DNA from: an uncultured Rhodospirillaceae bacterium
GTDB taxonomy: Bacteria; Pseudomonadota; Alphaproteobacteria; Rhodospirillales; Magnetospirillaceae
Assembly (NCBI GenBank): GCA_903901915.1
Contig: CAIUSV010000015.1
Location: forward strand, 1-64,000
Direction: 5' to 3'
DNA: 64,000 nt
Shown: in pieces, positions 31,142 to 59,324 of the stretch
Numbering within the stretch: the first letter of the stretch is position 1
Layout of the letters: each line of letters begins with the position of its first letter
The notes under the pieces: model-generated
What the model was told of the DNA's origin: nothing
What the model saw: the letters and a program-made list of their open reading frames with translations, nothing else
Database searches by the model: none
Position numbers and translations under genes: made by a program

Positions 31142-31703
31142 CCGCCCGCTGCTGCCGGTCATCGCGGTGCTGGGGGGCGCCGCCTATCCGTTCATCGTCT
31201 ATGCCCTACTGGGACGGGTTCCCGCCGGCGGTCTGGTGCTGGCGGCGCTGGCCCTGGTGGCGGCGCGGCTGGTCGGTCTGCGCGGCTCGGCGCTGGCGCG
31301 GCCGCTGCTGTTGCCGCTGGCGGCGGTCGCGGCGCTGATGGCGGCGCTTGGGCTGGTGGACGGCTCGGCCGCCGCCCAGGCCTATCCCATCGTCATGAGC
31401 CTGGGCATGGCCGCCGCCTTCGGCCTGTCGCTGCTGCGCCCACCTTGTCTGGTGGAATGTTTCGCCGCCGTGGTCGAGCCGACCCCCACCGAAGCGGCGC
31501 GGGCCTACATGCGCCGCGTCACCTGGGTCTGGTTCGGCTTCCTGCTGGGCAATGCCGCCCTGTCGGCGGCCAGTCTCGCCAGCGGCAGTCTGGAGCTGTG
31601 GACGCTGTACAACGGCTTAGTGTCGTACCTGCTGATGGCGGCGCTGTTCGGCGGCGAGTGGCTGGTGCGTCGCCGGGTGCGGCGGCGGGAGGCGGGGCGG
31701 TGA
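31122..31703 (+). CDS. Polytopic membrane protein (COG4648-like)
   Basis: This 193-aa protein has about six hydrophobic segments, conserved ARAYMRRVTWVWFGFLLGN in the middle and an Arg-rich cytoplasmic end (RRRVRRREAGR). It resembles the small membrane protein of unknown role that recurs in aryl-polyene clusters. Its stop overlaps the following GTG start. Confidence 0.75.
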   Translation: MTFSPNSRPLLPVIAVLGGAAYPFIVYALLGRVPAGGLVLAALALVAARLVGLRGSALARPLLLPLAAVAALMAALGLVDGSAAAQAYPIVMSLGMAAAFGLSLLRPPCLVECFAAVVEPTPTEAARAYMRRVTWVWFGFLLGNAALSAASLASGSLELWTLYNGLVSYLLMAALFGGEWLVRRRVRRREAGR

Positions 31704-34965: not shown

Positions 34966-35372
34966 TCACCGCCGAAGTGGCGTGCAAGGCGCAATTCTAT
35001 GATCTCGATCCCATGCAGGTGGTATGGCACGGCAACTATCCCCGCTTCCTGGAGGAGGCGCGGTGCGCCCTGCTCGACCGCATCGGCTACAACTATCCCG
35101 AGATGGAATCGTCGGGCTATCTGTGGCCCATCGTCGATCTGCGTATCAAATATGTCCGTGCCATCCGCTTCGGCCAGGAAATCCGGGTGGTGGCCACCCT
35201 GGCGGAGTACGAGAACCGCCTGCGCATTGACTATCGCATTCTCGACGCCGTTTCGGGCGAGGTGTTGACCAAGGCCCAGACCACCCAGGTGGCGGTGGAG
35301 GCGGCCAGCGGCGATCTCTGCCTGGAAAGCCCGCCGGCGCTGGTGGAGCGGGTGCGGGGAGCACGGCCATGA
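34962..35372 (+). CDS. Acyl-CoA/ACP thioesterase (4HBT hot-dog)
   Basis: This 136-aa thioesterase has the YbgC/4HBT motif FYDLDPMQVVWHGNYPRFLE, with the catalytic aspartate followed by the HGNY signature. A good AGGGAGGGGG site precedes the ATG. It is placed to release or edit chains on the ACPs. Overlaps both neighbours by four bases. Confidence 0.85.
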   Translation: MITAEVACKAQFYDLDPMQVVWHGNYPRFLEEARCALLDRIGYNYPEMESSGYLWPIVDLRIKYVRAIRFGQEIRVVATLAEYENRLRIDYRILDAVSGEVLTKAQTTQVAVEAASGDLCLESPPALVERVRGARP

Positions 35373-35965
35373 GATGGCTGGCCGTGCTGTCGGCGCTGCT
35401 GGCATCCTTTGCCGCGATGGCGGTCGAGCCGGCGACCCTGGCCGAGGGGCAGGTGTTGCGCGGCCGCTTCGTCCAGGAGCGCCATCTTCAAGGGTTCGCC
35501 CAACCGGTGCGGTCCGAGGGCAGTTTTCTGCTGGCCCCCGGTCGCGGCCTGATCTGGGCAGCGGAACAGCCGTTTGCGGTTACCACCGTGGTCACCGCCG
35601 CCGGGCTGGTGCAGAGCGTCGGTGGCGCCGAGACGGTGCGGCTGGCGGCGGCGCGGCTGCCGGTGCTGTCGCGGCTGCATGCCATGATGGCCGGTGCCCT
35701 GGCTGGCGACTGGCGGGCGCTGGAGGCCGAGTTCGAGGTGATCCGCGAGCCGGCGGGACCGCGCCAGCGTATCATCCTGACCCCCCGTCGCGCCCAGGAC
35801 AACGCGCCGTCGCGCATCGTCGCCCTGGTCGGACGCTTCGTCGACGAGGTCGATATCGAACGGTCCGGCGGCGACCGCGACCACCTTGCCTTCAACGGTC
35901 AGGTCTTATCCGCCGGGCCGCTTCGTGCCGACGAGGCCAAGGCGTTGGCGGCGGCGGCGCCATGA
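35369..35965 (+). CDS. LolA-like outer-membrane lipoprotein carrier
   Basis: This 198-aa protein has a signal peptide (MRWLAVLSALLASFAAMA), so it is periplasmic. The body has the LolA-like strands LRGRFVQERHLQGFAQPV and GSFLLAPGRGLIWAAEQPF. In aryl-polyene clusters it is thought to ferry the lipid-linked pigment to the outer membrane with the MMPL exporter. Confidence 0.82.
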   Translation: MRWLAVLSALLASFAAMAVEPATLAEGQVLRGRFVQERHLQGFAQPVRSEGSFLLAPGRGLIWAAEQPFAVTTVVTAAGLVQSVGGAETVRLAAARLPVLSRLHAMMAGALAGDWRALEAEFEVIREPAGPRQRIILTPRRAQDNAPSRIVALVGRFVDEVDIERSGGDRDHLAFNGQVLSAGPLRADEAKALAAAAP

Positions 35966-38235: not shown

Positions 38236-38269
38236 GACGTCGTAAAATTCCTGTGTATGTAGTGTCGTC

Positions 38270-38830
38270 ATGATTGCTCGATTTGTGGTTTTCGCCGCGC
38301 TTTTCGTCGTCGCCTGCGCCTCGCCGCCGCGAGGGGCGCAACGGGTTGCCGTGGCGCCGGGGGTGACGATGGAACTGCCGGCCCCGGCGGCGCTGGGGCG
38401 TTCGGTCGAGGCGGTGCAACTGGTGACCGCGCGCCGCGACGGCGAGATCTTCGCGTTCGAGGCGCGGCTGTCGGCCACGCCCGAGCGGCTGTTGCTGGTG
38501 GGGACCGATGCCATGGGGCGCCGGCTGATGCGGGTGGTGTGGCAGGATGGCGGCCTGAGCGTCGAGCGGGCCGACTGGCTGCCCGAGGCGGTGCGACCGG
38601 AAAACGTCCTGGCCGACGTCATGCTGTTGTACTGGCCGGAAGAGGCGTTGCGGCCGGGTCTGAGCGGCGCGGCGCTGGATGGCGGCTCCGGCCGCCACCT
38701 GCGCCGCGATGGCGAGGAGGTGGTGGTCATCGCCTATGACGGCGACCCCTGGCAGGGCGGCGCGGTGCTGCGCAACCTCGCTTGGGGCTACGAGATCGAG
38801 GTTCGCTCCGCTCTGGTGGGGCCGCCATGA
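38270..38830 (+). CDS. DUF3261-like lipoprotein
   Basis: This 186-aa protein has a lipoprotein signal peptide with the lipidated cysteine at residue 16 (VFAALFVVACASP). The body matches the small outer-membrane lipoprotein seen beside the LolA and MMPL genes in aryl-polyene clusters. Function is unknown, presumably receiving or anchoring the pigment. It is separated from the exporter by 34 nt and overlaps the next gene by ATGA. Confidence 0.72.
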   Translation: MIARFVVFAALFVVACASPPRGAQRVAVAPGVTMELPAPAALGRSVEAVQLVTARRDGEIFAFEARLSATPERLLLVGTDAMGRRLMRVVWQDGGLSVERADWLPEAVRPENVLADVMLLYWPEEALRPGLSGAALDGGSGRHLRRDGEEVVVIAYDGDPWQGGAVLRNLAWGYEIEVRSALVGPP

Positions 38831-39987
38831 GAATGTATCTGCCCGCCATGGCCGTCGCCACCTGCCTGGGAGCGGGCAAGGCCGCCACCGCCGCCGCGCT
38901 GTTCGCCGGACGCCGCGACGGCCTGCGGCCGCAGGCCGGCTTCGCCCCTCCGGTGGGGGCGGTTACCGTCGCGCTGCCCGACCTCGGCGGCCGTCAGGGC
39001 CGCAACAACCGTCTGCTGGCGCTGTTGCTGGACGAGATCGCCGCCCCCGTCGCCGCCGCGCGTGATCGCTTCGGGGCGGATCGCGTCGCCGTGGTGCTGG
39101 GGACCAGCACCTCGGGCATCGCCGAGGGCGAGGCGGCCATGGCCCATCGCCTGGCCACCGGGGCGTGGCCCGGGGACTTTCGCCATTCCGGGCAGGAGAC
39201 CGGCGACGCCGCCCTGTTCGCGGCCGATTATCTTGGACTGACCGGTCCGTCATATGTGGTTGCCACCGCCTGTTCGTCGGGGGCCAAGGTGTTCGCCAGC
39301 GCTCGGCGGCTGATCCGTCAGGGAGTGGTCGACGCGGCGGTGGTGGGGGGCGTCGATACCCTGTGCCGCCTGACCGTCGCCGGCTTCTCGGCACTGGAAT
39401 CGGTGGCGGCGGCGCCGTGCAATCCGTTCAGCATCAACCGCGCCGGCATCACCATCGGCGAGGGCGGCGCGGTGTTCCTGATGACCGCCGACCCTGCCGC
39501 CATCGCCCTGCTGGGGGTGGGGGAAAGCTCGGACGCCTACCATCTCAGCGCCCCCGACCCCACCGGGGCCGGGGCGTTGGCCGCCATGGTGGCGGCGCTG
39601 GAGGATGCCGGGCTGACGCCGTCGGACATCGCCTATGTCAACCTGCACGGCACTGCCACGCCGCTCAACGACGCCATGGAAGCCAAGGCGGTGCATGCCC
39701 TGTTCGGCGGCGGCGTGCCCTGTTCCTCGACCAAGGCCATGACCGGGCACACCCTGGGCGCCGCCGGGGCGGTCGAGGCCGCCTTCCTGTGGCTGACCCT
39801 GTCGCCGGAGTGGAACCGCGACGGGCTGTTGCCGCCGCATCTGTGGGACGGCATCGCCGATCCGGCGCTTCCGCCTCTGGCGCTGGCGCCGCCGGGATCT
39901 CGGTTGGCCGGGAGAGCGGGTCTCAGCAACTCCTTCGCCTTCGGTGGCAACAACTGCGCCGTGGTGCTGGGGAGGGGGGCGTCATGA
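38827..39987 (+). CDS. Beta-ketoacyl-ACP synthase I (cluster KS, first)
   Basis: This 386-aa thiolase-fold ketosynthase has the nucleophile C149 in VVATACSSGAKVF and the two histidines in NLHGTATPLND and GHTLGAAGAVEA, so it should be active. It probably elongates the polyene with malonyl-ACP. The start overlaps the lipoprotein stop. Confidence 0.87.
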   Translation: MRMYLPAMAVATCLGAGKAATAAALFAGRRDGLRPQAGFAPPVGAVTVALPDLGGRQGRNNRLLALLLDEIAAPVAAARDRFGADRVAVVLGTSTSGIAEGEAAMAHRLATGAWPGDFRHSGQETGDAALFAADYLGLTGPSYVVATACSSGAKVFASARRLIRQGVVDAAVVGGVDTLCRLTVAGFSALESVAAAPCNPFSINRAGITIGEGGAVFLMTADPAAIALLGVGESSDAYHLSAPDPTGAGALAAMVAALEDAGLTPSDIAYVNLHGTATPLNDAMEAKAVHALFGGGVPCSSTKAMTGHTLGAAGAVEAAFLWLTLSPEWNRDGLLPPHLWDGIADPALPPLALAPPGSRLAGRAGLSNSFAFGGNNCAVVLGRGAS

Positions 39988-40418
39988 CTCCCTGCCCGTG
40001 GACCATCGCCGAGGTGCTGCCCCACGCGCCGCCCATGGTGCTGCTGGACGAGGTCATCGCCTTTGACGCCGAGGCGGTGCTGGCGGCGGTGACCATTGGT
40101 TCCGATCATCCTTTCGCCACCGCCGAGGGCGTGCCGGTCCATGTCGGTATCGAACTGATGGCCCAGGCGTGCGGCGCCTATGCCGGGGTCCGGGCCTTGG
40201 CCGACGGCGAGCCGGTGCGGCTGGGCTATCTGCTGGGTACGCGATCGTTCCATGCCGTTCGCGACTGGCTGCGGCCGGGCGAGCGGCTGGAGGTTTCGGC
40301 GACGGTGGTGTTCCGCGATGACGGCATGGGGGTGTTCGACTGTCGCATCATCGCCGCCGATGGCGGGGTGGTGGCCGAGGCGCGGTTGAACCTGTTCCAG
40401 CCGAAGGGAGAGCCATGA
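39984..40418 (+). CDS. 3-hydroxyacyl-ACP dehydratase (hot-dog, FabZ-like)
   Basis: This 144-aa hot-dog protein has HAPPMVLLDEVIAFD at the N terminus and the helix VPVHVGIELMAQACGAYAG. It matches the stand-alone dehydratase of aryl-polyene clusters, which together with the fused dehydratase domain introduces the conjugated double bonds. Overlaps both neighbours by four bases. Confidence 0.82.
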   Translation: MTPCPWTIAEVLPHAPPMVLLDEVIAFDAEAVLAAVTIGSDHPFATAEGVPVHVGIELMAQACGAYAGVRALADGEPVRLGYLLGTRSFHAVRDWLRPGERLEVSATVVFRDDGMGVFDCRIIAADGGVVAEARLNLFQPKGEP

Positions 40419-41140
40419 CCAGGACCATTCTCGTCACCGGTGCCAGCAAGGGTATCGGCCGCGCCGTGGCGTTACGGCTGGCCCGCGACGGCTTTGCCAT
40501 CGTGGTGCACTACCACTCCGACGCCGCCGGCGCCGAGGAGACCCTGGACGGGGTCCGCGCCGCCGGCGCGGAGGGACGGCTGATCCGCTTCGATATCGCC
40601 GACCGCGCCCGGTGCCTGGAGGCGCTGGAGGCCGACATTGCCGCCCATGGCCCCTATTGGGGGGCGGTGCTTAACGCCGGCATCGCCCGCGACGCCGCCT
40701 TTCCCGCCATGACCGACGACGAGTGGGATGCGGTGCTGGGGACCAATCTCGACGGCTTCTACAACGTGCTGCGCCCCCTGGTGATGCCCATGGTCTCGGC
40801 GCGGCGGGGCGGGCGCATCGTTACCTTGTCGTCGGTGTCGGGACTGGTGGGCAATCGCGGACAGGTCAACTACTCCGCGGCCAAGGCCGGCATCATCGGC
40901 GCCACCAAGGCGCTGGCGCTGGAACTGGCCAAGCGGGCCATCACCGTCAATTGCGTCGCGCCGGGGGTGATCGACACCGCCATGCTGGATGGCCTGCCGC
41001 TGGACGAGGTGGTCAAGCTTGTTCCCATGCGCCGTCTGGGCCGCGTCGACGAGGTTGCCGGCGTGGTCGCCTTTCTGTGTTCGGACGAGGCCGGCTACGT
41101 TACCCGCCAAGTGATCTCGGTCAACGGAGGCATGGTATGA
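40415..41140 (+). CDS. 3-oxoacyl-ACP reductase (FabG-like SDR)
   Basis: This 241-aa short-chain dehydrogenase has the NADPH-binding TGASKGIG, NAG at about 88-90 and the catalytic set S139/S140, Y153 and K157 (LSSVSG, NYSAAKAG). It reduces the beta-keto group at each extension step. Confidence 0.9.
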   Translation: MTRTILVTGASKGIGRAVALRLARDGFAIVVHYHSDAAGAEETLDGVRAAGAEGRLIRFDIADRARCLEALEADIAAHGPYWGAVLNAGIARDAAFPAMTDDEWDAVLGTNLDGFYNVLRPLVMPMVSARRGGRIVTLSSVSGLVGNRGQVNYSAAKAGIIGATKALALELAKRAITVNCVAPGVIDTAMLDGLPLDEVVKLVPMRRLGRVDEVAGVVAFLCSDEAGYVTRQVISVNGGMV

Positions 41141-42363
41141 CGCGTCGCGTGGTGGTGACCGGGATGGGCGGCGTCACCGCCCTGGGCAATGACTGGCCGG
41201 CCATCCGCGCCAACCTGCTGGCGGGACGCACCGGCATCCGCCGCATGGCGGAGTGGGAGCGCTTCGAGGGCGTCAACACCCGGCTGGGGGCGCCGGTGGA
41301 CGGCTTTTCCGTCGAGGGGCGGTGGCCGCGCAAGAAGACCCGCACCATGGGGCCGGTGGCGCGGCTGGCGGTTTTCGCCGCCGAGCAGGCGTTGACCGAT
41401 GCCGGTCTGCTGGGCGACCCGGTGTTGACCTCGGGCCGGGCCGGGGTGGCGTTCGGCTCGTCGTTCGGCAGCCCGGATTCGGTGCTGGGGTTCTACGAGT
41501 TGAAGATGAACGGTGCGTCGCGCAATCTCAACGCCACCACCTACATCCAGATGATGGGCCACACCACGGCGGTGAACATCGGGCTGTTCTTCGGCCTGAC
41601 CGGCCGGGTGATTCCCACCTCCAGCGCCTGTACCTCGGGCAGCCAGGGCATCGGTTACGCCGCCGAGGCCATCCGCGCCGGCAAGGCCGACATCATGGTG
41701 GCCGGCGGGGCCGAGGAACTGGATATCACCGACGCCGCCGTGTTCGACACCCTGTTCGCCACCTCGACCCGCAACGACCGGCCCGGCACCACGCCGCAGC
41801 CCTATGACCGCGACCGTGACGGTCTGGTGATCGGCGAAGGTGCCGCCGCCTTGATATTGGAAGAGTATGACCACGCCAAGGCGCGGGGCGCCTCCATTCA
41901 TGCCGAGCTGGTCGGGTTCGGCAGCAATTCCGACGGCAACCACGTCACCCAACCCCAGGCGGCGACCATGGCGGTGGCGCTGCGGCTTGCCCTGGCCGAC
42001 GCCGATCTGCCGCCCGAGGCCGTCGGCATGGTCAACGGCCACGGCACCGCGACGGAATGGGGCGACATCGCCGAGACCCAGGCCACGGCGGCGGTGCTGG
42101 GCTCGGCCATGCCGATCCATTCGCTGAAAAGTTATTTCGGGCATTCGCTGGGCGCCTGCGGCGCCATCGAGGCGTGGCTGGGAATCGAGATGATGCGCGA
42201 AGGCTGGTTCTGTCCCACCGCCAACCTGACGAACATCGACGAGCGGTGCGCCGAACTGGACTACATCAAAGGCAGCGTGCTGCGGAAGAGTGTGGACCAT
42301 TTCATGTCCAACAATTTCGCCTTTGGCGGCATCAATACATCGTTGATTTTCAAGGCGGTTTGA
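41137..42363 (+). CDS. Beta-ketoacyl-ACP synthase II (FabF-like, cluster KS, second)
   Basis: This 408-aa ketosynthase has C165 in TSSACTSGSQGI and the histidines in NGHGTATEWGD and FGHSLGACGA. It is the last gene of the polyene cluster, overlapping the reductase gene by ATGA. The presence of two active-looking synthases plus the inactive-looking factor fits the aryl-polyene scheme of KS heterodimers. Confidence 0.9.
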   Translation: MTRRVVVTGMGGVTALGNDWPAIRANLLAGRTGIRRMAEWERFEGVNTRLGAPVDGFSVEGRWPRKKTRTMGPVARLAVFAAEQALTDAGLLGDPVLTSGRAGVAFGSSFGSPDSVLGFYELKMNGASRNLNATTYIQMMGHTTAVNIGLFFGLTGRVIPTSSACTSGSQGIGYAAEAIRAGKADIMVAGGAEELDITDAAVFDTLFATSTRNDRPGTTPQPYDRDRDGLVIGEGAAALILEEYDHAKARGASIHAELVGFGSNSDGNHVTQPQAATMAVALRLALADADLPPEAVGMVNGHGTATEWGDIAETQATAAVLGSAMPIHSLKSYFGHSLGACGAIEAWLGIEMMREGWFCPTANLTNIDERCAELDYIKGSVLRKSVDHFMSNNFAFGGINTSLIFKAV

Positions 42364-42431: not shown

Positions 42432-42633
42432 TCGTGGTGGCGGGAATTTGTTTCCCGGTGGAGCGACGGCCGGGCAATTTCTGCCGGGTAGTCTCTGCCG
42501 TGTCACCGGGTATCCGACGCTGCAATCAACTAATAAATGAAGGAATTCCCGCCCTTTGGCGAGTTGGCATGAGGCGTGCGTGCCTGTATGACTTGCAGGA
42601 GATTTCCGGCGGCGATGATCGGAGCTATTGGCC

Positions 42634-45600
42634 GTGGCCTTGTCCATATCCTCTCTCAGCGAAGTGCAGATCGCACAACTGAGCAGTTCCGCCATCCAGG
42701 GACTGACGACGACGGATATCGGCAGCCTGGGTGCCAATCAGGTCGCCGCCTTCACCATTCCCCAGATCGAAGCGCTGAGCGGGACTCAGCTCGCGGCGCT
42801 GTCCACCACGGGTATGGGCGGGCTGACCGCGGCCCAGATCGGGGCGTTGAGCCCCAGCCAGATGGCGTTCAGCGGTACGCAGCTTGCGGTCCTGATCGAT
42901 GCCCAGATCGATGCCTTCGGGGTCGATGAGGTCGCGGCGCTCAGTACGCTTCAGATCAAGGGGCTGACCACCGGCGAGCTGGCGTCGCTGACCACCGCCC
43001 AGTTCCGGGTTCTGGCGCCGACCCAGCTGGCGGCGCTGAGTTCGGCCCAGATCAGGGGGTTGGCCCCCACCGAGCTGTCGGAGCTGACATCGACCCAGGT
43101 CGCCGGCCTGGGCAGTACCCAGATCGCCGCCCTGACCACCACCCAGGTCGGCAGCCTGTCCAACGAGGCGATCGCCGCGCTTACCGCCACCCAATTGGCG
43201 GGGCTGACCCTGGCCGATGCCCAGGCGCTGACGCTTTCGCAGCTTCATGTGCTCGGCACCACCCAGATGGCGGCGTTGACCACCACCCAGATCAGGGGAC
43301 TGGAATCCGAAGATATCAGTTCGCTGAGCGTCGAGCAGTTGGGGGCCCTGTCCGCCGTCCAGATGGGGGCGATCACCAATCTGGCGGCGCGCGGTGTGAC
43401 CGATACCCAGATCATGGGACTGACCTCGACCCAGGTGGCGGGCATCGGCGTCGGGCAGGTGGCCTTTCTCAGCGCCTCGGCGGTTACGGCGCTGACCGTT
43501 ACCCAGCTGGCGGCGCTGAGTCCATCGCAGATCCGGTCGCTGACCTCGGATCAGGTGGGGATCTTGGATCTTGCGCAGGTGCAGGGGCTTGGCACCAACC
43601 AGTTCTCCAGTCTGACCGCCACTCAGATGGCGGCGTTGAGTTCGGACCAGGTCCGCTATCTGACCGGATCCCAGTTGGCCGCTCTCAGCACCACCCAGAT
43701 CAGGACCCTGACCACCACCGCCGTGGCGGCGCTGGATGTCTCCCAGTTGGGCGGCCTGACTTCGACCCAGCTTGGCGCCCTGACCATCAACCAGATCGGC
43801 GCGCTTTCGACCGCCGATGTCGCCGCCCTCGACACCAACCAGATGAAGGGACTGAGTACCGTCGAACTGGCGGCGCTGTCGGCGGATCAGATGGCGGCCC
43901 TGTCCGAGACCCAGGTGGCCGGGCTGAGCGCCACCCAGGTCCAGGGACTGACCGCCACCGAGCTTGGCCAGCTGACCATCCCCCAGTTGGGGGCGCTGAG
44001 CGGAAATCAGGTGGCATCGTTGGCGCTGACCAGTCTTCGCGGATTGGAGCAGGCGCAGCTTCAGGCCCTGACCCCGACCCAACTGGCGGCGATCACCTCG
44101 ACGCAATTGGGATATCTGAGCGCCGATCAGATCGCCGGCCTGAGTGAAACCCAGGTCGCCGCCCTGTCCGTCACCCAGGTCAAGGGGTTGACCGCCAACG
44201 AGATGCAGGCGTTGAGCGACTCCCAACTGGCGGTGCTGGCGACGACCCAGCTGGCGTCGCTGAGCACGTTTGCCGTTCGCGGTCTGAGTGGGGGGCAGAT
44301 CGGCCAGTTGAGCACCACCCAGATCGGCGGTCTGAGTTCGACCCAGCTGTCCAGCCTTGCCACCACCCAGATCGCCAGTCTGGCCGACACCCAGGTGGCC
44401 GCCCTGAGCACCACCCAGGTCGCGTCGCTGACCGCCGCTCAATTGGGGGCGCTGAGCGACGGTCAGTTCAGCCAGTTGTTCCGCACCCAGATCACTTCGC
44501 TATCGACCACCCAGATCATGGGGTTGACCACCACCCAGTTGGGAAGCCTGACCGCCACCCAGCTGGCCGGACTGACGGTGACCCAGATCTCGGCGTTGAC
44601 GCCGGCCCAGATCAAGGGGTTCGGCGTCAGCGGGCTTGAAGCGTTGAACGCCACCCAGCTTGCCGCGATATCGACCAGCCAGATCGGTGCGCTGTCCGGT
44701 GACCAGATCGGCGGCCTGACCGCCACCATGCTGGACCGGTTGAGCGCCAGCCAGCTTGGCGGCCTGACGCTGGCCCAGGTCGCGGCGCTGAACTCGGACC
44801 AGATCGCCTCGCTGTCCGAGACGCAGATCAAGTCGCTGTCGGCCACCGGCATCAACGGATTGACCCAGGGCGAGATCGGCGGCTTCACCGCCACCCAGCT
44901 CACCGCCCTGACCGCGACTCAGCTCGCGGTCTTGACCGGCGCCGCGCTGGGCGGCCTGACGGCCAGTCAGGTCTCCCAGTTGGCGACCGGCCAGATCAAG
45001 GCGCTGGCCGACACCCAGCTTGCCGCCCTGTCCGATGACGGGTTGTCGGGTCTTACCCCGACCCAGTTGGCGGCCATGGGCGCGACGCAGCTCGGCCGGT
45101 TGAGTTCGACCCAGATCGGCGGCCTGAGCGGAACGCAGCTTGCCGCCCTGACCTCGACCCAAGTGGCTGCTTTGCGTACCACCCAGATCGTCGGCCTGAC
45201 CGAGGCGCAGATGGCGGGGTTGTCCACGGTTCAGGTCAAGGCGTTGACCATGACCCAGATTTCGGCCTTGCCCGACACCGCTATCGGCGCGTTGAGCGAA
45301 GCCGGTCTGGCGGCGCTCGGCACCCTTCAGATCAAGGGGTTGACCGCCGCCAATGTCGATACCCTGACCGAGACCCAGCTTGCCGGCCTGTCCACCACCC
45401 AGGTGGCGGCGTTGAATGTCGCCACGCTGAGGAGTCTGGCCGACACCCAGATCGCCGCGCTTGCCACCACGCAAGTGATGGCGTTGTCCGTCACCCAGAT
45501 CGGCGGGCTTGGCGTCCTCCAGGTCGGAGCGCTGACCACCCAACAGGTTGCCGCATTCACCGCCACCCAGGTGAAAAGCCTGTCGCCGGTTCTGCTGGCG

Positions 45601-48600
45601 GCGTTGGGTGCCGACCAGATCGGCAGCCTGACCACCGCCGAGGTCGCGGCGCTGAGCACCACCCAGATGCGCGGTCTGACCGCCACGGCGGTTTCCCAAT
45701 TGAGCGCCACCCAGCTCGGGGCGCTGTCGGCGGTGCAGATCGGCGCCCTGTCCACCACCGGTATCGGCGGACTGACCACCGATCAGTTGGGGGGGCTGAG
45801 CGCCACCCAGATCCACGCCTGGGCGTCGACTCAGATCGGGGCGCTGCCGGTGGAGCAGGTCGCCGCCCTGACCGCGACGGAACTGTCCATGCTGACCCGG
45901 ACCCAGCTTGGTGGTCTGACCGCCGCCCAGGTCGGCGCCCTGACCACCACTCAGATCGTCGGTCTCAGCGGGTCGCAGGTGGCGGCGCTGTCGTCGGCGG
46001 GCATTTCGGGGCTGAGCGAAACCCAGATGAATCTGCTGACGGCGACGCAGATCGGCGTGCTGTCCGCGACCCAGGTCAGCGGGCTTTCGGCCACCCAGAT
46101 CGACGCGCTGAGCAGCGACGGCCTGGCCGGCTTGACCACCACCCAGTTCCGTGGACTGACGGCGGCCGGGTTTTCCACCACCCAGCTCGGCGGCCTGGGG
46201 GTGACCCAGATCGCCGCCCTGGCCACCACCCAGCTTGCCGGTCTGGCCGCGACCCAGGTGGCGGCCCTGTCCGTCACCCAATTGGGCGCCCTGGCCACCA
46301 CCCAGCTTGCCGCCCTGGCGGTCGAGGCGATCGGTGGGTTGACCGCGACCCAGACCGCGGCCTTGACCACGTTTCAGGTCCGGGCGCTGACGCCGACCCA
46401 GGTGGCGGGGTTGACCGCCACCGGCATCGACGGTCTTTCCTCCGGCGACATGGCGGCGTTCTCCACCGGTCAGATCGCCGCCCTGACCGCCACCCAGATG
46501 GACGCGATGAGCGCCACCCAGCTCGGCGCCCTGGCGACCACCCAGATCGCCGCCCTGTCGGTCGCCGCGCTCAATGGTCTGCCGGGGGGGCGGATCGGCG
46601 GGCTTTCCACGGCGCAGCTGGGGGCGCTGACCATTACCCAGACCGCCGCGCTGACCGCGACCCAGTTGGCCGATCTGGGTACGTCGGCGATCGCCGCGCT
46701 GTCCACCAGCCAGATCCGGAGCCTGACCGCCACCCAGTTCGACGCCCTGTCGGCCGACCAGCTGGGCGCGCTGACCTCGACCGCCTTGGCGGCATTGTCC
46801 TCGTCGCAGATCCGCAGCCTGAGCGCCACCGTCGCCGCCGCCCTGACCACCACCCAGCTGGGACAGTTGACCGCCACCCAGGTCGGGGCGCTGTCCGCCA
46901 CCGGGATCGGCGGGCTGACCGCGCCCCAGATCGCGGCGTTGACCACGACCCAGCTTCATGCCTGGACCTCGACCCAGGTCGGCGCGCTGACCGGTACCCA
47001 GATGGCCGGCCTGACCCCCGAAGAGATGGCGGCGCTGACCACTACCCAGTTGGGCGGATTGACCGCCGATCAGCTGGGCGCGCTGACCATCACCGCCATC
47101 GGCGGGCTGACCACCAGCCAGATTGCGGCGTTGTCGGTGGCGGGAATCGGCGGGCTGGCCGACACCCAGGTCGGCGTCCTGAGCGCAACCCAGATTTCGG
47201 CCTTGTCCACCACCCAGATCGGCGGCCTGACCGACATCCAGTTGGCGGCTTTGACCGTGACGCAACTGGGCTCCATGACCTCGACCCAGGTCGCGGCGCT
47301 GCCGGTCGGCGGCATCGACGGCTTGACCGACAGCCAGATCGGGGCGTTGACCGCGACCCAGATCAAGGCACTGACCGTGGCGCAGATCGGGGCGCTGTCG
47401 GCCACCGGCATCGATGGCCTGACCGCCACCCAGTTGGGACAGCTGACCACCACCCAGATCAGGGGCCTGTCGGCCACCGAGGTGGAATCCATGACCACCG
47501 GCCAACTGGCGGCCCTGGCGACCACCCAGGTCGCCGCGCTGTCGATGGAGGCGTTGAGCGGTCTGGCCGACACCCAGGTCGGAGGTCTGAGCGCCGCGCA
47601 GGTGGCGGCGCTGTCCACCACCCAGCTCGGCGTCCTGGCCGACACCCAGGTCGGCGCCTTGAGCACCGCCCAGGTGGCGGCGTTGACCACCACCCAGATC
47701 AAGGGGTTGAGCGCCACCCAGCTTGCCGCGTTCGACACCACCCAGCTGGCGGGACTGGCCGACACCGGCATCGCCGCCCTGACCACCACCCAGATCGCCG
47801 GGCTGGCCGACACCCAGATGGAGGCGTTGACCGCGCTTCAGGTCGGCGTGCTGAGCGCGACCCAGATCGGCGCGTTGTCGGGTGACGGCATCGTCGGCCT
47901 GACCGCGACCCAGATCGCCGGCCTGACCGCCACCCAGCTGGGAGCGCTGACGCCGGCGCTGATCGGCGCCCTGACATCGACCCAGATCGGCGGCTTGACC
48001 GGTACGGTGTTCGCGTCGCTGACCACCGCGCAACTGGGCGGTCTGACCCCGACCCAGATCGAGGCGCTGTCCGTTACCCAGGTGGGGGCGCTGACCACCA
48101 CTCAGATCGGGGCGCTGTCCAACACCGCTTTGCAGGGGCTGACGGCGACCCAGGCGGCGACCCTGTCGGCCAGCCAGATCGCCGTTCTGGCGACGACCCA
48201 GATTGCGGGATTGTCGGGCACGGCGCTGCAAGGGCTGACGGCGACCCAGATGGCGGGGCTGTCCACCACTCAGCTTCGCAGCCTGACCGTTGGGCAGGTC
48301 GCGGCACTGAGCGCATCCCAGGTGTCGGGCCTGACCGGCACCGGCATCGCCGCGCTGACGGTGACCCAGATGGCCGGATTGGGGACGACGCAGACCGGCG
48401 CCCTATCCGCCCAGCAGGTCGCTGGACTGACCACCACCCAGCTTGCCGCCCTGTCCGTCACCGGGGTCGGCGGCCTGACGGCGACGCAGATTTTGGCGCT
48501 GAGCACCACCCAGTTGCGTGGTCTGGCGGCATCCCAGATCGGCGCCCTGTCCAGTGACGCCATCGACAGCCTGACCACCACCCAGATCGCCAATCTGTCG

Positions 48601-50847
48601 ACCACCCAGGTCCGGGGGCTGGTGGCGATCCAGTTGGAACAATTGAACGCCCCCCAGCTTGGGGCGCTGAATTCAACCCAGATCGGCGCGCTGTCCATCG
48701 ACGAGATCAATGGCCTGTCGGCGGACCAGATGGCGGCGCTGTCCGCCACCCAGTTGCGCGGCCTGAGTTCGACCCAGATCGCGGCGCTGGGCTATGACGA
48801 GGTCGGCGGCCTGACCGCGACCCAAGTCGCGTCGCTGACCACCACCCAGTTGAGGGGGCTAACGTGGGATCAGGTGTCGGCGCTGTCCGCCGACGAGATT
48901 ACCGGGTTGACCACCACCGAGATCGCGTCGCTGACCACCACCCAGCTCGCCGGCCTGACCGACGGGCAGGTGGCGGCGCTGTCCACCACCCAGTTGGCGC
49001 GACTGTCGGCCACCCAGATCGGTGGCCTGTCCACCACCGGCATCGGCGGCCTGTCGCTGCCTCAGATCGCGTCGCTGACCACTACCCAGCTGCGCGGGCT
49101 GACGGCGGCCCAGATGGGGGCGTTGACCACCGATCAGGTCAGCGGCATGACCGCGACCGAACTTTCGTCGCTGACCCTGAACCAGCTTGGCGCGTTGGCG
49201 TCGTCGGGGCTGGCGGCGTTGACCGCGACCCAGATCGGCGGCCTGACCACCAATCAGATCACGGCGCTGACCCCCACCCAGCTTGGTGGCCTGGACGACA
49301 TTCAGATGGCGGTGCTGACCGCGACGCAACTGGGCGGCTTCTCTCCGGTTCAGTTGGGCGCCCTGTCCACCACCGCCATGGCTGGACTCTCGGCGAGCCA
49401 GATGGCGGCATTGACCACCACCCAACTGCGGGGCTTGACCCCGACCCAGATGGGTGCCTTGGCCGACACCCAGATTCAAAGCCTGTCCACCTCGGACATC
49501 GCCGCCCTGGGCAATGCCCAGCTCGCCGGCCTGAGCGCCGCCGGTATCGAGGCGCTGGCGGCCACCCAATTGGGCCGTATGACCTCGACCCAGATGGCGG
49601 GGCTGTCCACCACCGGGCTTGGCGGCCTGACCGAGACGCAGGTGGCGGGATTGACCACCACTCAGATCCGGGGCTTGAGTCCGACCCAGCTCGGCGCGCT
49701 ATCGACCACCGCCGTGGGGGGGCTTGGCAACAGTCAGATCGGGTCGCTGACCATCACTCAGTTGCGCGGCCTGACCGCGCCGCAGATGGGGGCGTTGAGC
49801 GCCACCCAGATCGGCGGGCTGACCAATGCCGAGATCGCGGCCCTGACCGCCACCCAGTTGGGCGGCCTGTCCACCACCGGCATCGCGGCGCTGACCACCA
49901 CCCAGTTGCGCAGTCTGAGCGCGGCCCAGATCGGCTCGTTGTCCACCACCGGCATCGGCGGGTTGAGCGAAACGCAGATCGGCTCGCTGGCCTCGACCCA
50001 GATGCTCGGGTTGACCGTCACCCAGGTAGGGTCGCTGACCACCACCCAGATCGCCGGCCTGACCACCGCCGAGATCGGCACCCTGTCCTTCACCCAACTG
50101 GGAGGGCTGGCGGCTACCGGCGTCGCCGCGTTCAGTCCCACCCAGCTTGCCGGCCTCTCGACCACCCAGATCGCGGCGTTGTCGGGCGCGGGTATCGGCG
50201 GTCTGACCGCCACCGAGCTGCAATCGCTGACCGCCACCCAGTTGGCGGCATTAACGGCGACCCAGATCGGGGCGCTGTCCACCACCGGCATCGGCGGCCT
50301 GACCGCGACCCAGATCGGCGGGCTGAGTTCCACACAGTTCGCCAGCCTGACCGGCAGCCAGCTGGGGGCGCTGACCGCCACCGAAATCGCCGGCCTGACC
50401 ACCGCCCAGGTCCAGGCGCTGACCGCCACCCAGCTTGGCGCGTTGGCCAGGGTGCAGATCCGGGCGCTGACCACCACCCAGACCGGGGCGCTGACGGCGG
50501 TGCAGATCGGCTCGCTGTCCACCACCCAGGTGAGCAACCTGACCGCGGTGCAGTTGCAGGCGTTGAATGCCACCCAGTTCGGCGCTCTGAGCGCGACCCA
50601 GGTCGGCGCCATGACCACCACCCAGATCGGCAATCTGACGGCGACCGAGATGTCGTCGCTCAGCCCGGCGCAGCTGGGCGGCCTGACCACCACCCAGATT
50701 TCGTCGTTGCCGATCACCAGCGTCGGCGCCCTGACGTCGGATCAGATCCAATCGCTGACGGCGGCGCAGATCGACGCCTTCACCCCGACCCAGGTTGCCG
50801 GCATGACCGTGACCCAGGTGGCGGCGATGGCGGCGGCTCTGGCATGA
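42634..50847 (+). CDS. Giant octapeptide-repeat protein (about 2,737 aa)
   Basis: No named family was recognised. After seven residues the whole protein is tandem octads, L-[TS]-x-[TS]-Q-[ILVM]-x-[AGS], ending with MAAALA. There is no signal peptide, membrane segment, cysteine-bearing domain or secretion tail. Length arithmetic gives about 341 octads, with only two register breaks seen (a 7-residue and a 5-residue unit). Each octad matches a helix N-cap: Leu staple, Thr/Ser cap, Gln at N3, aliphatic at N4, so a solenoid of short helices is a fair inference. Composition is Thr/Ser/Gln/Ala/Leu-rich and nearly lacks Lys and Cys. The GTG start at 42634 is preferred, as GGAG (42621-42624) is 9 nt away; TTG at 42628 is too close. 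The GT41 gene follows after 34 nt. Confidence 0.85.
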   Translation: MALSISSLSEVQIAQLSSSAIQGLTTTDIGSLGANQVAAFTIPQIEALSGTQLAALSTTGMGGLTAAQIGALSPSQMAFSGTQLAVLIDAQIDAFGVDEVAALSTLQIKGLTTGELASLTTAQFRVLAPTQLAALSSAQIRGLAPTELSELTSTQVAGLGSTQIAALTTTQVGSLSNEAIAALTATQLAGLTLADAQALTLSQLHVLGTTQMAALTTTQIRGLESEDISSLSVEQLGALSAVQMGAITNLAARGVTDTQIMGLTSTQVAGIGVGQVAFLSASAVTALTVTQLAALSPSQIRSLTSDQVGILDLAQVQGLGTNQFSSLTATQMAALSSDQVRYLTGSQLAALSTTQIRTLTTTAVAALDVSQLGGLTSTQLGALTINQIGALSTADVAALDTNQMKGLSTVELAALSADQMAALSETQVAGLSATQVQGLTATELGQLTIPQLGALSGNQVASLALTSLRGLEQAQLQALTPTQLAAITSTQLGYLSADQIAGLSETQVAALSVTQVKGLTANEMQALSDSQLAVLATTQLASLSTFAVRGLSGGQIGQLSTTQIGGLSSTQLSSLATTQIASLADTQVAALSTTQVASLTAAQLGALSDGQFSQLFRTQITSLSTTQIMGLTTTQLGSLTATQLAGLTVTQISALTPAQIKGFGVSGLEALNATQLAAISTSQIGALSGDQIGGLTATMLDRLSASQLGGLTLAQVAALNSDQIASLSETQIKSLSATGINGLTQGEIGGFTATQLTALTATQLAVLTGAALGGLTASQVSQLATGQIKALADTQLAALSDDGLSGLTPTQLAAMGATQLGRLSSTQIGGLSGTQLAALTSTQVAALRTTQIVGLTEAQMAGLSTVQVKALTMTQISALPDTAIGALSEAGLAALGTLQIKGLTAANVDTLTETQLAGLSTTQVAALNVATLRSLADTQIAALATTQVMALSVTQIGGLGVLQVGALTTQQVAAFTATQVKSLSPVLLAALGADQIGSLTTAEVAALSTTQMRGLTATAVSQLSATQLGALSAVQIGALSTTGIGGLTTDQLGGLSATQIHAWASTQIGALPVEQVAALTATELSMLTRTQLGGLTAAQVGALTTTQIVGLSGSQVAALSSAGISGLSETQMNLLTATQIGVLSATQVSGLSATQIDALSSDGLAGLTTTQFRGLTAAGFSTTQLGGLGVTQIAALATTQLAGLAATQVAALSVTQLGALATTQLAALAVEAIGGLTATQTAALTTFQVRALTPTQVAGLTATGIDGLSSGDMAAFSTGQIAALTATQMDAMSATQLGALATTQIAALSVAALNGLPGGRIGGLSTAQLGALTITQTAALTATQLADLGTSAIAALSTSQIRSLTATQFDALSADQLGALTSTALAALSSSQIRSLSATVAAALTTTQLGQLTATQVGALSATGIGGLTAPQIAALTTTQLHAWTSTQVGALTGTQMAGLTPEEMAALTTTQLGGLTADQLGALTITAIGGLTTSQIAALSVAGIGGLADTQVGVLSATQISALSTTQIGGLTDIQLAALTVTQLGSMTSTQVAALPVGGIDGLTDSQIGALTATQIKALTVAQIGALSATGIDGLTATQLGQLTTTQIRGLSATEVESMTTGQLAALATTQVAALSMEALSGLADTQVGGLSAAQVAALSTTQLGVLADTQVGALSTAQVAALTTTQIKGLSATQLAAFDTTQLAGLADTGIAALTTTQIAGLADTQMEALTALQVGVLSATQIGALSGDGIVGLTATQIAGLTATQLGALTPALIGALTSTQIGGLTGTVFASLTTAQLGGLTPTQIEALSVTQVGALTTTQIGALSNTALQGLTATQAATLSASQIAVLATTQIAGLSGTALQGLTATQMAGLSTTQLRSLTVGQVAALSASQVSGLTGTGIAALTVTQMAGLGTTQTGALSAQQVAGLTTTQLAALSVTGVGGLTATQILALSTTQLRGLAASQIGALSSDAIDSLTTTQIANLSTTQVRGLVAIQLEQLNAPQLGALNSTQIGALSIDEINGLSADQMAALSATQLRGLSSTQIAALGYDEVGGLTATQVASLTTTQLRGLTWDQVSALSADEITGLTTTEIASLTTTQLAGLTDGQVAALSTTQLARLSATQIGGLSTTGIGGLSLPQIASLTTTQLRGLTAAQMGALTTDQVSGMTATELSSLTLNQLGALASSGLAALTATQIGGLTTNQITALTPTQLGGLDDIQMAVLTATQLGGFSPVQLGALSTTAMAGLSASQMAALTTTQLRGLTPTQMGALADTQIQSLSTSDIAALGNAQLAGLSAAGIEALAATQLGRMTSTQMAGLSTTGLGGLTETQVAGLTTTQIRGLSPTQLGALSTTAVGGLGNSQIGSLTITQLRGLTAPQMGALSATQIGGLTNAEIAALTATQLGGLSTTGIAALTTTQLRSLSAAQIGSLSTTGIGGLSETQIGSLASTQMLGLTVTQVGSLTTTQIAGLTTAEIGTLSFTQLGGLAATGVAAFSPTQLAGLSTTQIAALSGAGIGGLTATELQSLTATQLAALTATQIGALSTTGIGGLTATQIGGLSSTQFASLTGSQLGALTATEIAGLTTAQVQALTATQLGALARVQIRALTTTQTGALTAVQIGSLSTTQVSNLTAVQLQALNATQFGALSATQVGAMTTTQIGNLTATEMSSLSPAQLGGLTTTQISSLPITSVGALTSDQIQSLTAAQIDAFTPTQVAGMTVTQVAAMAAALA
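42655..50829 (+). repeat. Tandem 24-bp coding repeat array (about 341 copies)
   Basis: The array encodes the octapeptides. A common copy reads CTGACCACCACCCAGATCGG followed by four more bases. Copies differ mainly at the codon for residue 3 and at the last two codons, so the array is old enough to have diverged yet is kept in frame. Units that lose the Gln (for example LSTTGIGG, LSSDGLAG, LSVAGIGG) recur mostly every four to five octads, giving a loose 32-40-residue super-period. Stops are nearly absent from several other frames, so long spurious open frames lie on both strands. Confidence 0.9.
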
Positions 50848-50881: not shown

Positions 50882-52900
50882 ATGGACAGCGAGATTTTGT
50901 CGTCGGCGATCGCCCAGGCCACCGACCGGGCGCTGAGCGTCATCGACCTGATTCGCGCGACCGAGCGTATCCGTCCGGTGGACGGCCCCGCCGCCGTGTT
51001 GCGGCTTTACGATGCCTGGACCCGGCATAACCGGGACAACCCGCTATTTTACGCGGTGCTGTTCAATTACAGCGTCGCCCTGATGGATGGCGGCGAACTG
51101 GAGCAGGCCCGCCAGTGCCTGGAACAGGCCATCGCCCTCAATCCCGAATTCATTCCGGCCCAGATCAACCTGGGCCGGCTGCATGAACGAACCGGGGCGG
51201 CGGGGGCGGCGGTGCTGCAATGGTCGGCGGCGGTGGAGCGGTTGGCGGCGGTGAGCGGAAGCGCCATCGCGCACAAGACCACCGCGCTCAACCAGATCGC
51301 CCGGGTCATGGAGGACAGCAACCAGGACGACGTCGCCGAAACCATGCTGCGCCAAAGCCTGGACATCGACCGCGATCAGCGCGAGGCATTGCAGCACTTC
51401 GTCGCTCTGCGGCAACGGCAATGCGAGTGGCCGGTGATCGACCCGTCCGAGCGGGTCGGGCGCGATTGTCTGGTTTCGGGCATGTCGCCCCTGTCCATCG
51501 CGGCCTACGCCGATGATCCCATGCTGCATCTGGCGGCGGCATGGAACTATAACCGGCTGGATGTCGGCCAGCCCGGCGCCGGCTTCGTCGAATCCCATTG
51601 GGCGGCGCGGGAAAGGGCGGCGGCCGGGCCGCTGCGCATCGGCTATCTCTCCTCGGATCTGCGCGAACACGCCGTCGGCCACCTGACCGCCGAGCTGTTC
51701 GAGGTACACGATCATGACGCGGTGGAGCTGTTCGCCTATTACAGCGGTGTGCCGGCGTCGGACCCGCTGCATCAGCGGATCAAGGGCAGCTTCGATCACT
51801 GGATCGACATCACCGCCCTCAGCGACGCCGATGCGGCGCGGCGGATCGCCGACGACGGCATCCAGATCCTGGTCGATCTCAACGGTTACACCAGGGACGG
51901 CCGCACCAAGCTGCTGGCGCTACGGCCGGCGCCGGTCATCGTCAACTGGCTGGGCTATCCCGGCACCACCGGCAGTCCCTATCACCACTACATCATCGCC
52001 GACGACTGGGTCATTCCGCCGGGCAGCGAAATCTATTATTCGGAAAAGGTGGTGCGGCTGCCGTGCTACCAGCCCAACGACCGGAAAAGGGTGGTGGCTC
52101 CGGCCCAGCCGGCGCGCCGTGACGTCGGCTTGCCCGACGAGGCGATGGTCTATTGCTGTTTCAACGGTCTGCATAAGCTCAACCGCTTCACCTTCCAGCG
52201 CTGGCTGACCATCCTGGAGCGGGTGCCCGACAGCGTGCTGTGGCTGCTCGGCGGCGCCGCGGGGGCCGAGCGGCGTCTGCGTGATTTCGCCGCCCAGCGG
52301 GGCATCGATCCGGCGCGGCTGGTGTTCGGCGACAAGCTGGCCAATCCCTTCCACCTCGCCCGTTATCCCCTGGCCGACCTGTTCCTCGACACCGCGCCCT
52401 ATGGCGCCCATACCACCGCGTCCGATGCCCTGTGGATGGGAGTGCCGGTGCTGACCCTCAGCGGCCATTCCTTCGCGTCCCGGGTCTGCGGCAGTCTGGT
52501 GCGTTCCGCCGGCCTGCCAGAATTGGGTTGCGAGTCCGCCGAGGAATACGTCGATCGCGCCGTGGCGCTGGGGCGCGACCGGCACAAGCTGCGCCGTTAC
52601 CGCGACCGGCTGGTCGAGCAGCGCGATACCTGCCGCCTGTTCGATACGCCGCTGCTGGCACGGCGGTTGGAGGAGCTTTACCGCCAGATGTGGCGCGACT
52701 TCGAGGCCGGCTTGCAGCCGTCTCCGGATCTGGCCAATCTCGATGTCTATCTTGAAGTCGGCATCAAGGCCGACCATGACGAGGTCGAGGCATTGGCACT
52801 TGCGGATTATGCCGGCTGGTGGCGGGAAAGGCTGGCCCGGCGCCATCGTTTCCGCCCCATCGCGCCCGATCACCGCATGTGGCCTGCCGCCACCGCCTGA
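50882..52900 (+). CDS. GT41 O-GlcNAc-transferase/SPINDLY-like glycosyltransferase with TPR N terminus
   Basis: This 672-aa protein has TPR-like helices (about 50-175, including CLEQAIALNPEFIPAQINLG) and a two-lobed GT41 catalytic region. Motifs: IGYLSSDLREHAVGHLT (H263/H267, matching the catalytic-region histidines of OGT), VDLNGYTRDGR, VNWLGYPGTTGSPYHHY, CCFNGLHKLNRFTFQRW, and LFLDTAPYGAHTTASDALWM with GVPVLTLSGHSFASR. These enzymes add GlcNAc or fucose to Ser/Thr, or hexose to Asn in HMW1C relatives. It has AGGAG six bases before the ATG. Linkage to the Thr/Ser-rich giant gene suggests that protein is its substrate. Donor sugar is unknown. Confidence 0.85.
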   Translation: MDSEILSSAIAQATDRALSVIDLIRATERIRPVDGPAAVLRLYDAWTRHNRDNPLFYAVLFNYSVALMDGGELEQARQCLEQAIALNPEFIPAQINLGRLHERTGAAGAAVLQWSAAVERLAAVSGSAIAHKTTALNQIARVMEDSNQDDVAETMLRQSLDIDRDQREALQHFVALRQRQCEWPVIDPSERVGRDCLVSGMSPLSIAAYADDPMLHLAAAWNYNRLDVGQPGAGFVESHWAARERAAAGPLRIGYLSSDLREHAVGHLTAELFEVHDHDAVELFAYYSGVPASDPLHQRIKGSFDHWIDITALSDADAARRIADDGIQILVDLNGYTRDGRTKLLALRPAPVIVNWLGYPGTTGSPYHHYIIADDWVIPPGSEIYYSEKVVRLPCYQPNDRKRVVAPAQPARRDVGLPDEAMVYCCFNGLHKLNRFTFQRWLTILERVPDSVLWLLGGAAGAERRLRDFAAQRGIDPARLVFGDKLANPFHLARYPLADLFLDTAPYGAHTTASDALWMGVPVLTLSGHSFASRVCGSLVRSAGLPELGCESAEEYVDRAVALGRDRHKLRRYRDRLVEQRDTCRLFDTPLLARRLEELYRQMWRDFEAGLQPSPDLANLDVYLEVGIKADHDEVEALALADYAGWWRERLARRHRFRPIAPDHRMWPAATA

Positions 52901-53104: not shown

Positions 53105-54784
53105 ATGTCCATGACAGTCGCTCGTAAGATCTGGTCAAATCTGTTGCTGGGGATCGCGGGCATCGTCGTGACGGCCGCCATATCCTACTTCGGAATGGAA
53201 AAGCTCGGCACCATTCAGGATGACGGGGCTGGACGGGCGCTCAACGCCGTTCGCGTTACCGAAGGGGCGCTGATGGGGGCAAAAGCCTATCAGATCATCG
53301 CGGATGCCATCATCAATCGGCATCTCGACGAAACCCGCGTCGAGTGGCCAAAAATGCGCGCCGAGATGGAAGACGGCATAAAGGCGATCGCCGCCGTCGC
53401 CGAAACTCCCGAGCAACGCGATTGGGCGGCGAAGGGTGGCGCGGCGGCGAAACAACTGATCAAGCTGTTTGAAGCAGACGTGTTGCCCCTGTTGGCGAGC
53501 CCCCAGGCGGCTTCGTCCTGGGAGACCATTCGCGAGCTTGACGAACGGATGGATGAACAGAAGACCCTGATCGCCGACAACTACGCCAAGCTGGCAAATG
53601 CCCTGCGTTCCGAATCGGACGCGGCCGATCGCCGCTTCGACGACGCCAGATATTGGACCGACGTCATGATCTTGCTGATCGGCACGATTCTCGGAGCTGT
53701 CACCCTTTGCCTCGGTTGGATGATCATCCGTTCCATCGTCGGCCCGATCAACGCTTCGATCGCGGTGATGGAGCGTCTGGCCCGCAACGATACGTCGGTC
53801 GATGTCACCGGTTGCGAACGTAGCGACGAACTGGGCGCCATCGCCAGGACCGTCCAGGTATTCAAGGAAAACGCCATCCAGGTGAGCGAGCTTCGCCGCC
53901 AGCAGGAGAATGCCGCCATCCAGGCGACCGCCGAGCGCAAGCGGATAATGAACAAGATGGCGGACGAGTTTGAAAGCAATGTCATGGGTGTGGTGAACGA
54001 GGTCTCCTCGTCCTCCACCGAGATGCAGCGCACCGCCCAGACCCTTTCCGCCACCGCTTTGCAGGCCAGCACACAGGCGTCGACCGTGGCGGCGGCGGCG
54101 GAACAGGCGTCGGTCAACGTTCAGACGGTGGCGGCGGCCTCCGAGGAGTTGTCTGCATCCATTGCCGAGATCAGCCGCCAGGTCGCCGAGGCGGCGCGGA
54201 TTTCCACCGAGGCGTCCGCGGAGACGGTTCGCACCAACGAGATGGTCCAGGTGTTGGCGGTGGCCGCCGACAAAATCGGCGAGGTGGTCAACCTCATCAC
54301 CGACATCGCCAGCCAGACCAACCTGCTGGCACTGAACGCCACCATCGAGGCCGCCAGGGCCGGTGAAGCGGGTAAGGGCTTCGCCGTGGTCGCCAACGAG
54401 GTCAAGAACCTGGCCAACCAGACCGGGCGGGCGACCGAGGAAATCAGCAACCAGATTTCCACCGTGCAGGAGGAGACCCGGCGTGCCGTGACCGCCATCA
54501 GGACCATCGGCGACGTGATCGAGCAGGTTCGGCAGATTTCATCGGGTATCGCCTCGGCGGTGGAACAGCAGGGGGCTGCAACCCGCGGAATCGCCGAGAA
54601 CGTCCAGCAGGCGGCTTTGGGAACCCAGGAGGTGTCGGAAAATATCGGTGGCGTTACTCAGGCGGCCGAATCGACCGGCTCCGCCGCCGATCACGTCTTG
54701 TCGTCGGCGGTCGGATTGGCGAAGCATTCCGAGCGTCTGCATGATGAAGTCGCCAGGTTCTTGGCCAATGTCAGGGTGGGGTAG
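53105..54784 (+). CDS. Methyl-accepting chemotaxis protein
   Basis: This 559-aa chemoreceptor has TM1 (about 13-30), a periplasmic four-helix-type ligand domain (about 31-185), TM2 (about 190-212), a HAMP domain (about 213-265) and the MA signalling domain. The hairpin tip [20 protein letters not shown] is strongly conserved. No CheR/CheB-tethering pentapeptide is visible at the C terminus ([10 protein letters not shown]). The ligand is not predictable. A second ATG two codons in is an alternative start. Confidence 0.93.
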
Positions 54785-59178: not shown

Positions 59179-59206
59179 AACGCCTTGAAACGCTTGATTT
59201 TTAGGT

Positions 59207-59227
59207 GGTGGCGGAGGGGGCGGGACC
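59207..59227 (-). other. Possible attachment-site remnant resembling a tRNA 3' end
   Basis: Read on the minus strand, TCCCGCCCCCTCCGCCA resembles the T-arm/acceptor 3' end of a class II (Ser-type) tRNA ending in CCA. No rest of a tRNA is present upstream. It lies about 100 nt before the integrase start, where attachment sites often sit. This is suggestive only. Confidence 0.25.
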
Positions 59228-59324
59228 CGGCAAGACCTCGCTGGAAATCCGCAGCCCGCCTAAAACCCGCGTAAACCCTCACTTTTCTGCATTCCACTGG
59301 GACACACCGGTGGGACACAGAGCC

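Follow-up and report, generated by a model that had tools for sequence, protein, structure and literature searches.

Genes for ALTTAQ octad-repeat proteins are usually paired with a gene for a GT41 glycosyltransferase in several bacterial groups, and one such pair lies on the forward strand of the window, the 64,000-nucleotide stretch of DNA analyzed here. The repeat gene (42634–50847) encodes a protein of 2,737 amino acids, and 34 bases after its end begins a gene (50882–52900) for a 672-aa TPR + GT41 (OGT/SPINDLY-like) glycosyltransferase. The first-pass annotation of this DNA described the giant repeat and missed the adjacent enzyme, the usual partner of ALTTAQ arrays. We consider it reasonably probable that the ALTTAQ protein is a rod that is O-glycosylated by its own GT41 enzyme and then probably exported; within this model, we infer the glycosylation, the sugar, the export, and the assembly.

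The repeat gene opens with a GTG codon, preceded at a distance of 9 bases by a possible ribosome-binding GGAG (42621–42624, forward strand; read from the sequence), and its frame translation runs through 2,737 residues to a stop with no internal stop. In an alignment with eight relatives, whose starts were cut by eye, homology extends back to the GTG and takes in a block of conserved N-terminal octads (42634–42933, forward strand; nine rows), which supports this start without proving it. A dynamic-programming cut resolves the protein into 339 octads, a single 7-mer, and a single 5-mer, flanked by a head of 7 residues and a tail of 6, bearing out the 341 units that had first been proposed. The 7-mer (residues 80–86; 42871–42891, forward strand) is present in eight of nine aligned rows and its signature was found in 21 of the 46 arrays that are complete at the 5′ end; as it is kept in relatives, it is hardly a sequence error. 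The 5-mer occupies residues 1175–1179 (46156–46170, forward strand). The octad motif had also been described as holding to the end of the protein: octads do run throughout, with a looser pattern covering a fraction of 0.99 of the residues, but the strict form L[TS]x[TS]Q[ILVM]x[AGS] was overstated, being matched by 107 of the 339 octads. Of all 339, 313 have L at position 1 and 256 have Q at position 5; Ser and Thr make up 702 of the 2,737 residues, with 28 Asn.

No signal peptide was seen by eye in the N-termini of the array proteins, that of the window included, and besides PF20080 no Pfam domain passes with a stretch of its own; both agree with the initial description. The C-terminal octads (50695–50844, forward strand) have a consensus that is widely common among 77 ends, a few of which are cut frames rather than true C-termini, and they may serve as a cap, as a docking site for the enzyme, or as an export signal. 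In the host genome, all 82 PF20080 matches (E 0.001) fall inside 42634–50847. The array is unlikely to be an assembly artefact, because similar open arrays occur in many other genomes, including the one-contig genomes G039 and G044; open array frames range from about 800 to 4,600 residues. Long antisense frames, e.g., 44500–48231, were taken as by-products of the repeat.

The unit had at first been thought to belong to no named family, which proved wrong: the window protein matches PF20080 (ALTTAQ_rpt) in 105 stretches, with 1087 bits against a curated cut-off of 26.4. A literature search found no paper naming ALTTAQ or giving its motif strings as this repeat, and one motif string occurs in a pullulanase N-terminal sequence. 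PF20080 is thus a family already named, yet undescribed as far as we found, for which the GT41 pairing, the 3.43-octad period, the charge stripes, and the AlphaFold2 (AF2) helix per octad reported below are new. Two further Pfam totals on the array were set aside as composition matches: LRR_EndoS (PF23952; 60.5 bits in total against a cut-off of 27.9, with no stretch passing) and CAAP1, for which likewise no stretch passes.

The adjacent enzyme belongs to GT41 (PF13844), with 283.8 bits against a cut-off of 25. Residues N428, K432, H510, T511, T512, and D515, which we take to be donor-site residues, are invariant in 13 rows, and the closest PDB relatives of the enzyme profile are OGT (444 bits), XcOGT (368 bits), and SPINDLY (293 bits). 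On these grounds, the window enzyme is a putative OGT-like protein O-glycosyltransferase that would attach a sugar to Ser/Thr. Its score against the HMW1C N-glycosyltransferase family (NCBIfam NF049992) was 33.4 bits, where the cut-off is 1000, and this assignment was rejected.

Among 20 flanking loci from host-family genomes, the enzyme lies directly downstream of the array in 18; the two exceptions are L052, which ends at the contig end, and L038, by coordinates the second array of a genome whose other array, L064, is paired. A search started from the enzyme covered the best 80 of 558 relatives, with a query profile made from paired enzymes, so that the same subfamily was sampled (L085 and L091 are near copies within this set). 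In 71 of the 80, an array precedes the enzyme on the same strand and lies no more than 280 bases from the enzyme match, and the addition by eye of L083 and L127 brings the loci with a same-strand ALTTAQ gene directly upstream to 73. Four more loci (L102, L105, L126, and L133) carry the array on the opposite strand, no more than 1.3 kb away; in L105 and L126 a decarboxylase-like gene separates it from the enzyme. L077 and L123, with 0 and 59 bases upstream, are too short to judge, which leaves an array beside the enzyme in 77 of 78 evaluable loci; the one enzyme of the 80 without an array, in L118, has none in the 525 bases upstream.

The same association holds at the level of genomes. With arrays called at E 1e-6 and the enzyme as the best match over 650 bits (the next stood at 399), the enzyme is present in 25 of 28 host-family genomes with ALTTAQ and in none of 27 without (Fisher p about 1e-12, kinship ignored). 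Within the host's genus, the corresponding counts are 13 of 13 and 0 of 4, again with kinship ignored. ALTTAQ genomes without the usual GT41 are G005, G006, G008, G086, and G174. Clustering of the neighbors in 88 loci placed the next real families in 7, 6, and 5 loci. Variants of the locus were also observed: a divergent 1,232-aa TPR + GT41 protein lies head to head with an array in G006 (L145, 8852–12550 and 12885–15749), and two tandem GT41 genes follow the array in L054, L055, L056, and L057.

In a solenoid of stacked octads, those that share a face would be expected to be alike. In 62 sequences, resemblance is raised at lags of 4, 6, 7, 10, 14, 17, 20, 24, 28, 34, 38, 41, 48, 58, and 62 octads, and weakly raised at 3, 18, and 31. 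Most of the raised lags are rounded multiples of 24/7, or 3.43, octads, although lags 6 and 20 are raised without being predicted by this value and the predicted lag 21 is not raised. A second period, of two octads, is present across the array proteins and is strongest at position 8 (G versus A); the 3.43-octad turn leaves it unexplained, and we suspect that it helps to raise lags 6 and 20. When 98 runs (19,746 octads in 69 sequences) were subjected to Fourier analysis, the mean peaks lay at 7/24 and 1/2, with lesser ones near 10/24 and 5/24. The 7/24 power of the longest run exceeded that of all 300 octad-order shuffles in 66 of 67 sequences, or in 64 of 65 once two genes that had been entered twice were reduced to one copy each. 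By taxonomic group, as assigned from record titles, this was so for the window (1/1), Alphaproteobacteria (49/49), Verrucomicrobiota (5/5), Myxococcota/delta (5/5), Desulfovibrionia (4/4), and Marinimicrobia bins (2/3), and both long runs of the window protein surpassed all 300 of their shuffles. In 48 of the 67 sequences the 7/24 peak is the tallest; in the other 19, including the window, another component is higher. Q at position 5 taken alone peaks at 7/24 in 46 of 98 runs.

Charged residues follow the same period. Across the 98 runs, D/E lie opposite K/R (phase 179 degrees, coherence 0.76; 200 shuffles gave a mean coherence of 0.15 and a maximum of 0.38), and the two are within 60 degrees of opposite in 77 runs, where one third would be expected. 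The two runs of the window protein have phases of -178 and 158 degrees. From sequence, we interpret the 24/7 period and the opposed charges as the mark of a solenoid in which 3.43 octads complete a turn and the charged residues form straight stripes. At the raised lags, like residues in the window protein show no excess of codon identity, which speaks against recent tandem duplication as the source of the period in that protein.

Modeling of 10 to 40 repeats with AlphaFold had been recommended in the first-pass annotation, and a 32-octad fragment (47707–48474, forward strand) was modeled by AF2 with a pLDDT of 92.6 and a pTM of 0.83, from an input alignment of nine other stretches of the window protein. 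The model has 30 helices of 4–6 residues and a final one of 11, so that nearly every octad is predicted to form one short helix. The N-terminal 260 residues, with eight relatives in the alignment, gave a pLDDT of 90.8. Octad positions 3–7 are helical in the 32-octad model, which puts T/S2 at the N-cap, Q/E5 at N3, and L1/I6 at N′/N4, in keeping with the hydrophobic staple and capping box foreseen earlier. The long solenoid that had been suggested along with these features fits both the AF2 model and, independently, the 3.43-octad period, while nothing was found for the suggested cytoskeletal role. An alpha-solenoid consists of helical repeats stacked with a regular superhelical turn; what was observed here is the AF2-predicted helices and a 3.43 period read from sequence, and the helix lengths in the 32-octad model lack the 7/24 period (p 0.46). 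AF2 can be over-confident on repeats (PMC11795689).

Foldseek comparison with viral proteins gave 4 of 278 matches at E 0.001 or better, with TM-scores of 0.15–0.26 by query. A phage protein (A0A6J7X2V1; 753 aa, uncultured Caudovirales) matches the 47707–48474 model over 101 columns at 40% identity, and octads may thus occur in phages.

Clues to export come from the neighborhoods of other arrays. A type I ABC transporter together with HlyD adjoins the array in 6 of 105 loci (L052, L114, L120, L130, L138, and L142), counting ABC proteins at least 58% identical to that of L138 and leaving out weaker matches (26–35%) in seven further loci; the 105 loci represent 93 distinct ones, with none of the twelve duplicates among the transporter or decarboxylase loci counted. 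Beside the window array no type I ABC + HlyD pair was found, and the host genome has an ABC relative of 50% identity unlinked to the array (G000:C87). Within the host family, an ABC relative at 700 bits or more is present in 8 of 28 ALTTAQ genomes versus 1 of 27 others. HlyD and MFS genes come after one of the arrays. Of the features of a type I substrate, namely ABC/HlyD neighbors and no N-terminal signal, such neighbors were seen in 6 of 105 loci and not at the window; export is likely for some array proteins and possible for that of the window. In one genome, ALTTAQ repeats are fused to a bacterial cadherin-like domain (L144, 7568–10990), and on a Rhizobium plasmid curlin and csgH genes lie close to an array-GT41 locus (L139, 15886–22238). 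A UDP-glucuronate decarboxylase-like gene neighbors the cassette in 11 of 105 loci; UDP-xylose as the donor, considered as a lead only, was set aside because a decarboxylase relative is present in 50 of 55 host-family genomes, with or without arrays.

Across the whole class, arrays occur in 7 of 387 genomes, and besides the host genome four of the six also have the enzyme. Five of 99 plasmid records with a relative of the enzyme were examined, and every one carries arrays in the 24 kb inspected; coordinates identify one of the five as the replicon of G198. A tree of 81 enzymes made by a quick method comprises Alphaproteobacteria, Verrucomicrobiota, Myxococcota, and Desulfovibrionaceae, and, as drawn, nests the latter three within the alphaproteobacterial spread. 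Two Marinimicrobia rows are placed among Rhodospirillaceae and may be misbinned. The tree looks like horizontal spread, although changes of label along it are no proof.

We propose that the first gene of the two-gene cassette would give rise to a rod in which every octad forms a single short, capped helix and about 3.43 octads (27 residues) complete each turn of an uninterrupted solenoid, so that 341 octads would make about 99 turns. Were the turns to stack at helix-packing distance, the rod would be roughly 0.1 micrometre long, with acidic residues on one face and basic residues on the opposite one. The cytoplasmic TPR + GT41 enzyme would attach sugar to Ser/Thr of the rod, and the modified rod would most likely be exported through a type I-like route, with no signal cleaved off, to serve as a surface or matrix filament.

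The evidence on pairing and export can be arranged differently. The glycosylated rod might stay in the cytoplasm as a scaffold or filament, with the few type I transporters found next to arrays being incidental; we hold this to be possible, if doubtful. GT41 enzymes of the TPR type act in the cytoplasm, as does the FlmG pathway, the array proteins have no signal peptide visible by eye, and a transporter lies beside only 6 of the 105 loci. The same six ABC + HlyD loci, the HlyD and MFS genes after one array, and the cadherin-like fusion elsewhere point instead to export, and type I secretion substrates also have no N-terminal signals. Modification of some other protein by the GT41 enzyme, with the repeat protein as a scaffold or regulator bound by the TPRs, seems quite unlikely: FlmG does modify flagellins in Caulobacter (PMC7591256), but no other family is as constant in the 88 loci, and a giant S/T-rich protein next to the enzyme in 77 of 78 evaluable loci is most simply read as the substrate. 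Taking the rod as the GT41 substrate would be the simplest account of the pairing.

The geometry, too, has other possible sources. An ancient duplication unit of 24 octads could have left the 24/7 period in place of a solenoid turn, and lag 24 has the strongest mean across the array proteins, matches recur every 576 bases in several genomes (by eye), and old duplications would likewise leave no codon signal. A bare 24-octad unit does not predict the raised lags 4, 7, 10, 14, and 17, however, whereas 3.43 does; L062, L072, and L125 show the shorter lags more than 24; and acid and base are opposite in phase, so that we regard this origin as unlikely. A solenoid that binds nucleic acid or peptide, as TALE, PUF, and armadillo proteins do, is very unlikely, since the armadillo and PUF proteins among the Foldseek matches score weakly (all above E 0.01, TM-score 0.32 or less by query length) and the GT41 linkage would be left unexplained. 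A glycosylated rod with a solenoid turn of 3.43 octads is the reading that we retain.

Under this reading, a repeat known as a Pfam name gains a predicted fold, a period read from its sequence, a partner enzyme, and a proposed function that can be tested, and an OGT-like enzyme comes with a giant candidate substrate next door. If the rod is real, it would be a solenoid of unusually short unit whose length is set by repeat number, which would be useful for protein design. More tentatively, these proteins could be glycosylated nanorods in which gene length sets rod length and the opposed charged faces pack rods into a sheath or bundle, forming a class of filaments that several phyla would build from an eight-residue unit with a dedicated OGT-like enzyme.

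Other genes surround the cassette in the window. Just upstream (29765–42363) is what we term an aryl-polyene-type cluster on the basis of its Pfam matches, with ketosynthases, ApeI/ApeP-like dehydratases, an AMP-binding enzyme, a thioesterase, an MMPL transporter, and acyltransferases. The GT41 gene is followed by a methyl-accepting chemotaxis protein (53105–54784), and chemotaxis genes also come after the arrays in L054, L057, and L143. An integrase-like gene (59205–61094; DUF6538, with phage integrase just under the cut-off) lies 6 kb downstream, and ARAGORN found no tRNA in the window.

In the PDB, the best sequence match of the array is HeliScrew4 (9zem), a 120-residue chain with in-register octads of the ALTTAQ kind (gapless phmmer, 116 residues, E 5.9e-16). 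It differs from the 341-unit window array in being short and in having Pro and Glu in most of the octads shown. Going by its name, it is perhaps a design; a literature search found no paper on HeliScrew. The likeness is one of sequence, and 9zem was not among the Foldseek rows listed (library to 2026-04-08). The next PDB sequence matches, LRR proteins, were taken as composition matches. By structure, the best PDB matches in Foldseek are to mesothelin (first row E 1.7e-4), with TM-scores of 0.2–0.3 and about 16% identity, which shows no kinship.

To our knowledge, few bacterial OGT-like enzymes have known substrates. The window enzyme shares the FN...K and HTT..D motifs of OGT, XcOGT, and SPINDLY, and has fewer TPRs than human OGT. 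The genes for HMW1 and HMW1C are neighbors, as are those of the cassette. HMW1, too, is large and has a GT41 enzyme of its own (PMC3012730). That enzyme, HMW1C, is an N-glycosyltransferase without TPRs, whereas the window enzyme has TPRs and Asn is rare in the window array. In FlmG, a TPR + glycosyltransferase protein that modifies the flagellins of Caulobacter crescentus, the substrate is flagellin, without an octad array, and the sugar is pseudaminic acid; as in the model proposed here, its O-glycosylation pathway is cytoplasmic, and this pathway affects how flagellin is exported (PMC7591256).
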